Positions 15,804 to 27,800 of a stretch of 64,000 nt of DNA are shown here, piece after piece. The notes beneath the pieces were generated by a model. That model was not told the DNA's origin. It did no database searches and saw only the letters and a program-made list of their open reading frames with translations. Source of the stretch: Arctopsyche grandis (lineage: Eukaryota; Arthropoda; Insecta; Trichoptera; Hydropsychidae); the NCBI RefSeq assembly GCF_051622035.1, contig NC_135367.1, positions 12,126,501-12,190,500 on the forward strand. Reading direction: 5' to 3'. How positions within the stretch are numbered: position 1 is the stretch's first letter; the number at the start of each line of letters is the position of its first letter. The position numbers were made by a program, and so were the translations under genes.

Positions 15804-18800
15804 CTACAGCAAAATAATCAAATACATATTAATATAGAAAATAAGTTTCACACATTATCAAAATAAATTATTCTAAGATAGTGTAAAATTAATACTGGAA
15901 ACACCAACCAAAATATTTACAGACTATTCAATTGAATCAATTAATATTTTAATAGTAGCTATCTTGACATGACCCAATATTTGCAGAAACGTTTGAAAAT
16001 TTGACAGATTACTTTTTGAAATCCGATCAAGCCCATCTCGATAGAGCTACAGATCATCTCCAACTCCAAAGGCTGTGCCAATATAAGTGCTTACATGTGC
16101 ATATATTGATGTATAAGCTATGAACGTATAACTCACAACCTTAATGTCTCTGTATTTTTAGTACGCCTCTAATACATGCACAGTTCTCATATCGAGCATT
16201 ATCAAGGCCACCGAGAGAGATCCCGGGCCCTGGAAAAAGAATTTCGGGCCCTATGACAAACTAAAAAAACTAGATCTTATAGATATATTTTTAATATGCG
16301 AAAAATATATCAGAACTATTAGAAAAATACCTATATGTTGGTTATTTTTTACATACCTCCTTTATTTTAAATAATGGAATAAGAAAGTATGATATAATAG
16401 GTACGATTTCACATGGCACAAAGAATGCGTGGATTGAAAAATAATGAACGTTTATTTAGCATTAAATAAATATATGTATTTTTATGTACATAGAATAATA
16501 TAAAATATCAATATCGATTAGTCGAATATCCCGATATGGGGTCCCTTGAGTAGTCAGGGCCCTGGAACTTTACCCCCAGCTTCCCCCCCCCCCCCCTTTC
16601 GTTGGCCCTGAGCTTTATAATATTATATATGTATATGATGTTTTAGTCTACATATGTTTTCTAAGCCGAGAGGACCTGCCTAAACGGTCACTATCAACGA
16701 ATTATAGACTAATAAGAATAATCCAATATCAAACACTTACAAAACATTACATTTACCAATATATTTTTTGGCTCCTGAATGAAAATTATTTATCACTACG
16801 TGTCCAGAAGTCGGCAATAATATGATATCATCAATATATGTATTTTATAACACATGGTAAATATAATATATAAAATAAAATATGAATAAAAGTAATCTGT
16901 CTTTCTGGACAATACACGCATACACACTGACAAGCATACATACAATAAATTAAAGAACTAATAATAAAAATAACAAAATTAAAATATGATGATGTGTCTG
17001 AAGTGTTAGTTAAGCATACCGGTGTGAATTCGCTTGTGGATGTTGAGTGTTGACTTCTGGGCAAATCGCTTCAGACAAAGGTCACATTGATAAGGCCGCT
17101 CTCCTGTGTGCGTTCGTATGTGTATCTCCAGGTAAGGCTTGCAAGTGAACGCCGCTGGACACTGCAGGCATTGGAACGGTCTGCCCTGGACTGTTGACGA
17201 TTTCAAACCACAAACAAACAACGTTTATTTTCTAGCTCTGTGTTTCTAAGTTTCATATTCATACAATACAAACTGTTTTTTTTTCGTATATTAAATGAAA
17301 ATCATATCAAAAAGAAAAAAAAACAAAGAACCAAAAAGCATGAGCATTGTCCAGAAAGTTGACTCTGACTAAATGTGAAAATTGGATTATTCTCATTGTA
17401 CTTAATGTAATAACAAATAAATCGACACGTACGAGCTGTGATCAAAAAATACGGTGAATGCATGCACTACGCATTTATAAAACTAATAACCAAACCAATA
17501 AAGGTTCCAGTGTTACCATATATACATGTCATAAAACTTGTTTGAAAGATTTCCAAACCAATCTGATGATGAAAACTAACTAATCCAAAGACACTAGTTC
17601 AATTGATTAAAAACCAATTCTAAATCATAAATCGTGTGATAATTTTGACGACATACTCTATCTAGCAGAAAAGAATAATGTAATACAATACTTTGGAAAA
17701 AATTTAATTAATTTGAACTTGTTTCCGGAGATCCAAGTGACCACGACAAAGCGTTACCGGAAAAAGATTTTTAGAGCAGCTTCGAAGATGGCAAGACCGT
17801 TGGAATGAAGTATATCGCTGATTGTCCAAACGTAGAAAAAATCTAATTATACCAGCTCGAAATGCGTATACGTTCACCGTATTTTTTGATCATCTCGTAT
17901 TTATATTATATGTACCTGTGTGCGTTCTTTTGTGAATGTTGAGCGTAGACTTTTGGGCGAATCTTTTCAGACACACGTCGCATTGGTATGGCCGTTCGCC
18001 GGTGTGCGTCCGATTGTGTATTTCCAAATATTGTTTGCACGTGAACGCTGCCGGACATTGGAGACATTGAAACGGTCTGCCTTGAACTGCTTGTGGTGGG
18101 AAGAAAATAATAAAAATGAATTTCAATGTGAGCGAAAGGCTTTAAAGTGAATCATTTTCTAACGAATGTAGCCCACACGTATATATTCAAAAATGTATAC
18201 AAAAACATTCATAATAAACTCTATAATACATCCAAGTAAAGTTAGAATACGTTGAATGGAATATAGATTGTAGTACGTTACACTAAAATGTAACACATTT
18301 AGGACTTCTGAAATGTTCAGCTATAGTACTGAATAAGCTGAAAACAAATACAACTGAATCGTAGATTGTAAAACGTAGTTTCAATAAAAAAATTATCATG
18401 GTGTAAATTTTTTTAAATTGTGTTTAACAAGTAACGTTTACAAAAAATATACAGTTTCAATCAAATTAAAGTCTAATACATAGATTTGTATATTATAAAG
18501 AACATTATATAACACATTTTACACACAATTTCTATTCTGTTTAGTGGACATCTTAAATATTCATCAACAAATCAATAATGGGACGTATAATATTCTATTG
18601 AACACAATGTGTATAAATAGCATTATTAAACCAGCAACAAATCCTACCACCCACCTGTGACAAATCATTAAAACCTTGAAAATATACAATCTCGATATGC
18701 AAAGTCCAAAATGTGCAATTCCACCACCCCTTTTGAACATGTAAACATGCAACTCAACGAAATAATTATCAAATTGAATATAGATACAAGTACAATAAAT

Positions 18801-24800: not shown

Positions 24801-27800
24801 TTTTGGATCAATTTCATCAAGTGTCCGCGCTCGGGCAACAAAAAGAAAAAAAACACGACAGATCGATCGACCAATGCTCTCTTAGATATGGAACACGTTG
24901 TGTAGATAGAAAATTCCTACCCGTATGAACTTTTCCATGACGGTTGAGGCTGGACTTCTGAGTGAACCGCAAAAAACAGATGTGGCACTGGAAGGGACGC
25001 ACTTTGTCTAATAAAGCTCGCCTGTGCTCCTCTATAAAGGACACATTACCAAACAAAAAATTACCGGTACAATGAAAGAAAGCAGAACAGAACAGAAAAA
25101 GAAACCCTTGCACTTACTCTATGACTTTTATAGCTCAAAAAAAAAAGAGGAATTGATTTATACTCAAAAACTATTCATTTCTTTATTAATTTATTGTCAA
25201 AATTCAACCGTACTGCCTCGTAATCTTTCATCATGCACTTGTAGGCTAGAATTTTAACCCACCAGTATGTATTTTTCCGTGACGACCCAGGCTGGATTTC
25301 TGCGTGAATCGTACAAAGCAGATGTCACATTGGTAGGGGCGTTCCTTGGCTAGTAGCGCTCGCCTGTGTTCCTCTAAACCAAACCATCACCGCAAATGAA
25401 AATGACAACACTACTATGATACAAAATAAACCCCAAAAAAAAAAAAGAAAAAAGTTCAACTACTAAAACAAAAAAAACTTCAAAAAATTTACTAATCCTA
25501 ATAAAAGTGTCCCTCTTTTTCTTTGCATTTTATTTATATTGTTTTAGCTTTAAGTTATTTTCCTTTCAGAATACAATATTGAACAAAGGGGGTGGAGGGA
25601 TGTGTTGCTTAACAACCCACCAGTATGTATTTTCTTGTGGCGGCCGAGGCTGGAACTCTGGGTGAATCTCATCTGACAGATGTCGCACTGGTAAGGCCGG
25701 TCCTTCAACAGCAGAGCCCGCATGTGCTCATCTATAAGCCGATCACGGCCAACGGGGATGGAAAAAAATCACTAAACTCTTACCAGCTGAACACATATTT
25801 GAATCACTCATAAAACATGCACAAACAAATCCATTCTTATTTAAAAATTATATTTAAAAAAATAAAGAAATCCATTCATTCTTCAATCAAACAATGAGCC
25901 CTATCCAATGCTAGTTAGTCATTGAAAAATAAAATTAGCAAAAAAAATACCCAAAAACTATTCACTTATAAGATTATAACATTATTTTTCATCATTTCAC
26001 GTATTATTGTCGAGCACAAGCATAGTAATTAAGTAAAATATTATAAATTTATAACAGTACTTTTATGAGATATATGTCATCTTATAAAATAAAATAAAAG
26101 ATGAGACAATAACAAAAATTAGAATCTATTTTCAAAATGTCAATTTTGATCAGAAATGGTATAATAGTATAATATTCTATACATTAAAAAATATATACAA
26201 ACTCTAGCATGATATGTAAAGATATAAAAAGAATAAAATTTTTTTTGTGTACAAAATATTTAAAAAAAAAGTAATAGACAAATCAATGGTTGGCAACCTA
26301 AAATATGAAATACATAAATGAAAGGTTACCTACCAATCAGTGATGTAAATAATACTTATAATCTTAAGTACTTTGTAAATGAATTCATATACAAATTTTT
26401 GAGATTGATATATAAACTCATTTTGTTCCATCAATAAAAAATGTTTGTAAATTGTAAAAAAAGATTCTCAACAAATTCAAATTAAGTTAAATATAATATA
26501 CATAGTTCAGCAATAAAATCTGTCAATAATTAGTCGTACAAAGAAGAATTTAAAATATTAAGTTATTTGCTTTTTCTTGTATGAATTGATGACAAAATAA
26601 AAAGCACGAAGTTACATCGCTTTCAAATATTTGAACTCATAAGTAACAAAGATTTATTAAAAAATTCACAAAAAAAAAGATAGTATTATAAATTAATTCC
26701 ATATTCCAGTCAGAAAAATTTACACCATTCTAAGTGTGAGAATTGCAACCCATTAGCCGGAAAACATGCCTGAAGCATTCATGTGATATGATGAGTAATA
26801 ATTGTTAGTAATAGCCCAAAAATTAATTGATAATATCAAAATAGCATTGTGTAATTGAAAAGGGCTAAATATACAACACATAATTGAATAGTTCATTGCT
26901 TTTAAGATGGGCCCACGACTCAAACATGTATAATTACAATACAATATAAAAATCACAATCAAATACAGATTCACCCACTATCACAACCACTACTATTTTA
27001 TACATTTTCCACTATCGAACGATGAAGTATTATAAATATCATTATAATTCTAAGTCCAATTTAATACTATTATTACATCATATTGGTTTTCATATTCGAT
27101 TTTTTTTATTTCTTATTCACTTCTTATTATATTTGATTTTTTTATACATTAGCCAGAACTGTAATATTTTATTTTTAGTGCGCATGTGTGTATGAGTGTT
27201 TGTATGGAGATGTGTATTGTGTTTCGTGTACGTTACGGAATGCCAATATGAAAAAAAATTATCATACTTTAATCGAATCAATAGGATTTTCTTCTTTACA
27301 CGCGACAACTATACAAGAACCCTATGAAATTGTTATGACATATACCGCGTATTAATACTACGTATTCCAAATATCTTTCGAGAAACAAATTGATCAAATA
27401 AAATAAATTTTCAGCAACAGAAGAAACCCTTATCACTCAGATATTCAAAATTTAACATCATCATGCTTATTGTAAACTTAAATTTATAAGTTTATAATAA
27501 GCAAAATTATATATAAAATTAAGACTTAAATCGATCATATATAAATATTAGTAAATAAAATAATATATATATATATATATTATTATACATTAAATAATCA
27601 AATCTTAGTGGTAAGGGTCATCGACCAATCATTATGGTAAAATATAAAAACCAATATTAAATTTTGTTAATTTTCATTATTTAGTTAATATATATTTCAA
27701 TCAGGGATAGCAGATGGAATAGATATTAGATACATTAAGAAATCAACTATATGAGGTGTGTTGTAATTAATTTAAAAGTATAGAAAAAATTCTCTTAATA

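Follow-up and report, generated by a model that had tools for sequence, protein, structure and literature searches.

Gene structure and the symmetric exon array

The window analyzed here is a stretch of 64,000 nucleotides (nt) of DNA from Arctopsyche grandis (Trichoptera; assembly GCF_051622035.1, contig NC_135367.1, positions 12,126,501 to 12,190,500 of the forward strand), and all coordinates given below are positions within this window. Its minus strand carries a C2H2 zinc-finger gene, which we take to be Combgap-like, and nine consecutive symmetric exons of this gene, referred to as the array exons, are the subject of this work. The gene was modelled as 17 coding exons between positions 30998 and 14954, which together formed a single open frame of 824 codons. 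The spliced product comprises a polyglutamine (poly-Q) stretch encoded by exon e2, 18 C2H2 fingers, and a short tail, and the Pfam scan of this product returned C2H2 families. Exon e1 and the start codon are tentative, the candidate ATG having been picked by frame. The exons are listed in Table 1.

The array consists of four exons of 111 nt (A1 to A4), two of 84 nt (B1 and B2), and three of 171 nt (C1 to C3), all of which are in phase 1-1 and have GT/AG borders. When the nine array exons were joined with the eight flanking exons, one open frame was obtained. A preliminary description of the window had placed nine exons of these lengths at this locus, each starting and ending after the first base of a codon, and had proposed that any subset of them can be skipped or repeated in frame to give about 6 to 18 fingers. 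All nine exons were present in the splice model, and none of the 512 subsets of array exons showed a broken frame or an inner stop codon. Sense codons were generated by all 100 donor-acceptor joins tried (10 x 10). The strict pattern C-X2-C-X12-H-X3-H detected 5 to 17 fingers across the 512 subsets, and the proposed total of 6 to 18 was reproduced once the final finger encoded by e15/e16 was added (C-X2-C-X12-H-X4-H; read by eye, with four residues between its histidines). Every array exon border falls within a linker between fingers, past the final histidine, and cuts no finger, so that skipping or inclusion leaves whole fingers. Under equal phases, the probability of nine independent 1-1 exons is about 3e-9, but the copies are not independent, and only the few founding events count.

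Each canonical finger repeat takes up 28 codons (84 nt). Each B exon corresponds to one repeat, each C exon to two repeats and one codon, and each A exon to one repeat and nine codons of extra linker. The linkers encoded by the A exons are 16 residues long (the usual length is 7) and have EH, L, K, and RP in common in all four, and those ahead of the C exons have 8 residues. The helix residues from -1 to 6 are largely repeated across the fingers, as in QKSSLGR, QKSSLNI, CKQYLEI, and their kin. By eye, a second in-frame phase-1 AG was seen 24 nt inside exons A2 (25373-25350) and A3 (25031-25008) but not in A1 or A4; splicing to this AG would make the long linker shorter.

Table 1. Coding exons of the C2H2 zinc-finger gene in the order of transcription, with window coordinates
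Feature	Position	Strand	Basis
Exon e1, first coding part from candidate ATG (tentative)	30895..30998	-	splice model
Exon e2, holds poly-Q stretch	30445..30817	-	splice model
Exon e3, finger 1 and start of finger 2	29123..29308	-	splice model, subset translation
Exon e4, remainder of finger 2 and finger 3; phase-1 donor joinable to every array exon or e14	27926..28070	-	
Array exon A1, 111 nt, phase 1-1, finger 4 and long linker	25621..25731	-	
Array exon A2, 111 nt, phase 1-1, finger 5 and long linker	25263..25373	-	
Array exon A3, 111 nt, phase 1-1, finger 6 and long linker	24921..25031	-	
Array exon A4, 111 nt, phase 1-1, finger 7 and long linker	24616..24726	-	
Array exon B1, 84 nt, phase 1-1, finger 8	22453..22536	-	
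Array exon B2, 84 nt, phase 1-1, finger 9; T-poor acceptor	20484..20567	-	
Array exon C1, 171 nt, phase 1-1, fingers 10-11; G-rich acceptor	20220..20390	-	
Array exon C2, 171 nt, phase 1-1, fingers 12-13	17916..18086	-	
Array exon C3, 171 nt, phase 1-1, fingers 14-15	17020..17190	-	
Exon e14, most of finger 16; phase-1 acceptor open to e4 or any array exon	15734..15803	-	
Exon e15, end of finger 16, finger 17, and most of finger 18	15474..15635	-	
Exon e16, end of finger 18 and tail	15226..15354	-	
Exon e17, C-terminus and stop codon	14954..15134	-	

Origin and age of the array exons

The array copies aligned with each other at the nucleotide level, the best pair being C2/C3 (expectation value, E, about 1e-36). 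The amino acid identity over the exon was 58-81% in the A set, 84-93% in the C set, and 56% between B1 and B2, for which the identity over the 25-residue finger was 52%. B1 was closest to the finger of e4 (15/25 residues) and B2 to the second finger of C1 (18/25). In the finger tree, which is small (25 columns, with 0 of 14 branches starred), A1-A4 were joined (88/81), B1 and B2 were kept apart, and an unresolved fork (81/78) held the first C fingers together with the first finger of the e3/e4 pair. The C exons mirror the two-finger layout of this pair (fingers 2 and 3), minus the intron that splits it.

Neighboring homologous exons of the same phase and free of decay, which mark tandem exon duplication, were found in the A and C sets. 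Judged from their sequences, both sets arose through tandem exon duplication. By the same comparison, B1 and B2 are alike in length only and are neither a duplicate pair nor each other's closest relatives; they are equally long because 84 nt is one finger repeat. The claim of the preliminary description that the three length classes are each internally duplicated was thus borne out for A and C, but not for B, on the basis of the identities and the tree. Its view that the array grew by exon duplication, and not within one exon, was upheld by the splice model and by the nucleotide alignment of the copies. The duplication unit varies by class, being one finger in A and B and two in C.

Synonymous differences per site were near saturation in the C (0.72-0.85) and A (0.60-0.83) sets and reached 0.57 between B1 and B2, and the corresponding non-synonymous differences per site were 0.04-0.11, 0.10-0.26, and 0.27, respectively. 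For C2-C3, 31.5 differences were counted over 37.2 synonymous sites versus 5.5 over 130.8 non-synonymous sites (Fisher test on rounded counts, about 7e-22). The nucleotide similarity within a class stopped near the exon edges, 3-5 nt beyond them for C2/C3 and A2/A3, and extended the most for A3/A4, up to about 14 nt upstream of the exon. The translated search of the window revealed no additional or decayed array copy among the 25 best matches outside the exons of the gene. The strongest of these were at 36190 (E 0.036, plus strand) and at 36970 (E 0.077), the latter in a separate minus-strand open reading frame (36704-37090) with one C2H2 finger of the zf-met/jaz type, and no translated match better than E 0.48 fell in the introns of the gene among the 25 best listed.

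The DNA-contact residues were not diversified in A (3/24 versus 61/168 elsewhere) or in C (4/24 versus 16/120 elsewhere), and the B counts (3/4 versus 9/19 elsewhere) came from too few positions. These counts gave no sign of diversifying selection at the contact residues of A or C. By these measures, the array is old, preserved, and held by purifying selection, and it is neither recent nor of the arms-race kind.

Splice signals and inclusion of the array exons

The T fraction of the acceptors between positions -20 and -4 averaged 0.36 for the array exons (n = 9), compared with 0.57 for the other exons of the gene (n = 7) and 0.59 for the acceptors of other genes (n = 11). The latter were derived from 13 exon-start peptides hand-picked from by-eye gene models, two of which were dropped as no AG was found beside them. 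The intronic AGs had a T fraction of 0.38 (n = 524), and the array acceptors were no better than these. The one-sided p values for T-poor array acceptors were 0.016 against the flanking exons (0.014 by permutation), 0.004 against the other genes, and 0.002 against both, and the same test on pyrimidines gave 0.012, 0.033, and 0.009, respectively. Farther upstream, the T fraction was similar for the array and the flanks (0.40 and 0.41). The poorest acceptors were those of B2 and C1. T-poor acceptors of this type would fit cassette exons that need help for inclusion, which is a hint of such use. Weak donors in the array were rejected (p 0.91).

The reading we favor, to which we assign a probability of roughly 0.55, is that the gene encodes a Combgap-like C2H2 factor with weakly recognized middle-finger cassettes, which are variably included and set its grip on repetitive DNA. 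The array exons would be included to differing extents by tissue or stage, and the resulting proteins would all share fingers 1-3 and 16-18 at the ends but differ in how many similar fingers lie in the middle; that finger number varies between isoforms is plausible, with indirect support from the T-poor acceptors. The included number would set the length or strength of the grip on repetitive DNA and not a new motif, because the middle fingers mostly repeat their DNA-contact residues and fly Combgap is described as binding GTGT/(GT)n (PMC10379775, PMC6735708). A two-finger C unit would span 6 base pairs (bp), or three GT steps. A splicing-tuned molecular ruler, in which the regulated inclusion of interchangeable exons would produce a graded 6- to 18-finger series, appears quite doubtful. 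In such a ruler, each exon would add about 3 or 6 bp of nearly identical recognition, finger number would set the lengths of the GT-type repeats bound at Polycomb elements, and tissues would differ in the setting.

Several points weigh against variable inclusion of middle-finger cassettes in a Combgap-like factor. The array donors were not weak (p 0.91 for being weaker than those of the flanks), and donors or exonic enhancers may offset the weak tracts, leading to constitutive inclusion. The acceptors of A4, B1, and C2 are fair, the GC content upstream of the array exons was slightly higher than that of the flanks (0.33 and 0.27), and the samples were small, with several splice measures tried. 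As for the grip on DNA, the A fingers may lie outside any continuous array that reads DNA; because their linkers have 16 residues instead of the usual 7, they are possibly flexibly tethered, with the B and C fingers able to read DNA in a row. The helix of B1 (QKCALNL) is unlike the others. Finally, the name Combgap-like comes from the preliminary description and from general architecture, and the gene is a putative Combgap orthologue.

An unlikely, though serious, alternative is that all nine exons are constitutive and encode one invariant 18-finger protein, the symmetric phases being a trace of tandem duplication because only symmetric exons duplicate without a frame shift. The clean 824-residue frame of the full splice, donors that are not weak, and the lack of a pairing signal for exclusive splicing in a coarse test of the A set are consistent with this alternative, as is the purifying selection on every A and C copy, which is expected if all of them are always used. 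The T-poor acceptors, compared with those of the other exons of the gene and of other genes, argue against it. Non-exclusive homologous neighbor exons of similar length and frame occur in Drosophila X-chromosome genes (90/16180 exons, counted per transcript, and 6/1705 genes; PMC3228551), but the authors of that study deem such exons seldom non-exclusive, and finger-repeat genes may differ.

It is distinctly improbable that the A and C sets are subject to mutually exclusive choice, in which a transcript would carry a single A exon, a single C exon, and one or two B exons, and the copies would swap slightly different fingers. The resulting proteins would have 10 (3+1+1+2+3) or 11 (3+1+2+2+3) fingers, matching the counts given for fly Combgap (PMC3445564; PMC5147775, PMC10379775), and the A and C sets show the published predictors of exclusive exons, namely similar length, the same splice frame, and homology (PMC3228551). 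In the latter study, 65 internal exons were predicted as exclusive and 26 of the 65 were already annotated so; these figures alone do not settle a finger-repeat gene. However, multiple inclusion stays in frame without penalty, and the C copies share nearly all contact residues, so that swapping them would change little. The docking pairing of the A set was also within that of the shuffles (-16.0 versus -15.5, standard deviation 1.3; -17.7 versus -16.6, standard deviation 1.0), in a coarse test of this set with 12 shuffles each. A recent copy number that is still in flux, with populations or closely related species gaining and losing finger exons in the manner of arms-race zinc-finger genes, is exceedingly improbable. 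The same-class tandem copies do adjoin, but the near-saturated synonymous sites, the purifying selection, and the lack of decayed copies in the translated window search argue against recent or fast change, and the contact residues are not diversified in A or C. These data thus lend no support to gains or losses of copies on a short evolutionary timescale.

Genomic context and related systems

The intron between A4 and B1 contains a 283-nt imperfect palindrome (23794-24076; 82% self-complementary) that is similar to a miniature inverted-repeat transposable element. A dispersed repeat was found in two copies with about 80-82% identity, one in the intron after C3 (16248-16636) and the other at 56538-56992. 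At 43449-43989, the minus strand holds an incomplete and decayed copy of the DnaJ-type gene (40949-42876) that looks like a pseudogene. Pfam supports the DnaJ assignment. The neighbor genes at 3219-4692, 6541-9780, and 54569-56127 are, respectively, a ribosomal protein gene that is presumably RPL11-like (Pfam Ribosomal_L5), a coiled-coil gene taken to be DRC1-like, for which Pfam gave nothing for the piece tried, and an animal haem peroxidase gene (Pfam).

As expected for an animal gene, no relative was found by tblastn in the viral and prokaryote collections IMG/VR (queried with the C-terminal fingers and the C exons) and GTDB (one query). In these scans, 2, 4, and 20 stretches matched a pattern, none of which was a relative. 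The sequence search of PDB gave 255 matches, the best 60 of which were C2H2 proteins (ZNF568, Aart, CTCF, and PRDM9 among them), and these matches carry no orthology information. Rfam gave 0 matches at the gathering score.

Drosophila Combgap (CG8367), a Polycomb-recruiting C2H2 factor, shares a poly-Q stretch and a long C2H2 array with the product described here, and its binding to GTGT/(GT)n would suit the repetitive array. Fly Combgap is reported to have 11 C2H2 fingers and a poly-Q stretch (PMC5147775, PMC10379775), or 10 fingers (PMC3445564), whereas up to 18 fingers over nine symmetric array exons are present here; all 18 are obtained with every exon, and 10-11 are reachable by skipping. 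Set against the printed fly counts, this difference in finger number may reflect isoform or lineage, or may not be a real one. A Combgap isoform PF is named in PMC10325914, and neither a Combgap exon map nor a finger count by isoform was found in the literature searched, subscription papers lying outside its scope.

Tandem symmetric exons that feed alternative splicing are of an already known kind. Finger number is varied by splicing elsewhere, for example in Ikaros and Crooked legs (Crol), the isoforms of the latter carrying 12 to 18 fingers. In contrast to Crol, the helices here mostly lack the R-rich contacts that would be expected for poly(G) by the recognition code, and they carry Q, C, S, V, or R at -1. 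The likeness lies in the 18 tandem C2H2 fingers of Drosophila Crol isoform PA, as in the full array here; Crol is a Combgap partner and binds poly(G) (PMC10325914).

Tandem duplicated or mutually exclusive exons are similar to the array in being neighboring homologous exons of equal length and phase, and tandem duplicated exon events are described as mostly ancient (PMC9741552, PMC3228551). Here, in contrast, one phase serves three length classes, and many copies can be included together. Finger arrays have grown by duplication, as here, in mammalian KRAB/SCAN C2H2 genes (PMC2443715) and hemipteran ZF271-like genes (PMC6444547). In the mammalian SCAN-KRAB genes described, however, the finger domain is spoken of as lying within one exon (PMC2443715), whereas each exon here holds one or two fingers and the contact residues have been conserved instead of diversifying.

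Where each symmetric exon encodes one or two fingers, splicing alone can alter finger number, within one animal and without mutation. If Combgap-like proteins do so, a direct test would be available of whether finger number sets simple-repeat binding at Polycomb response elements; if they do not, the array would be a clear example of ancient exon duplicates maintained by selection.

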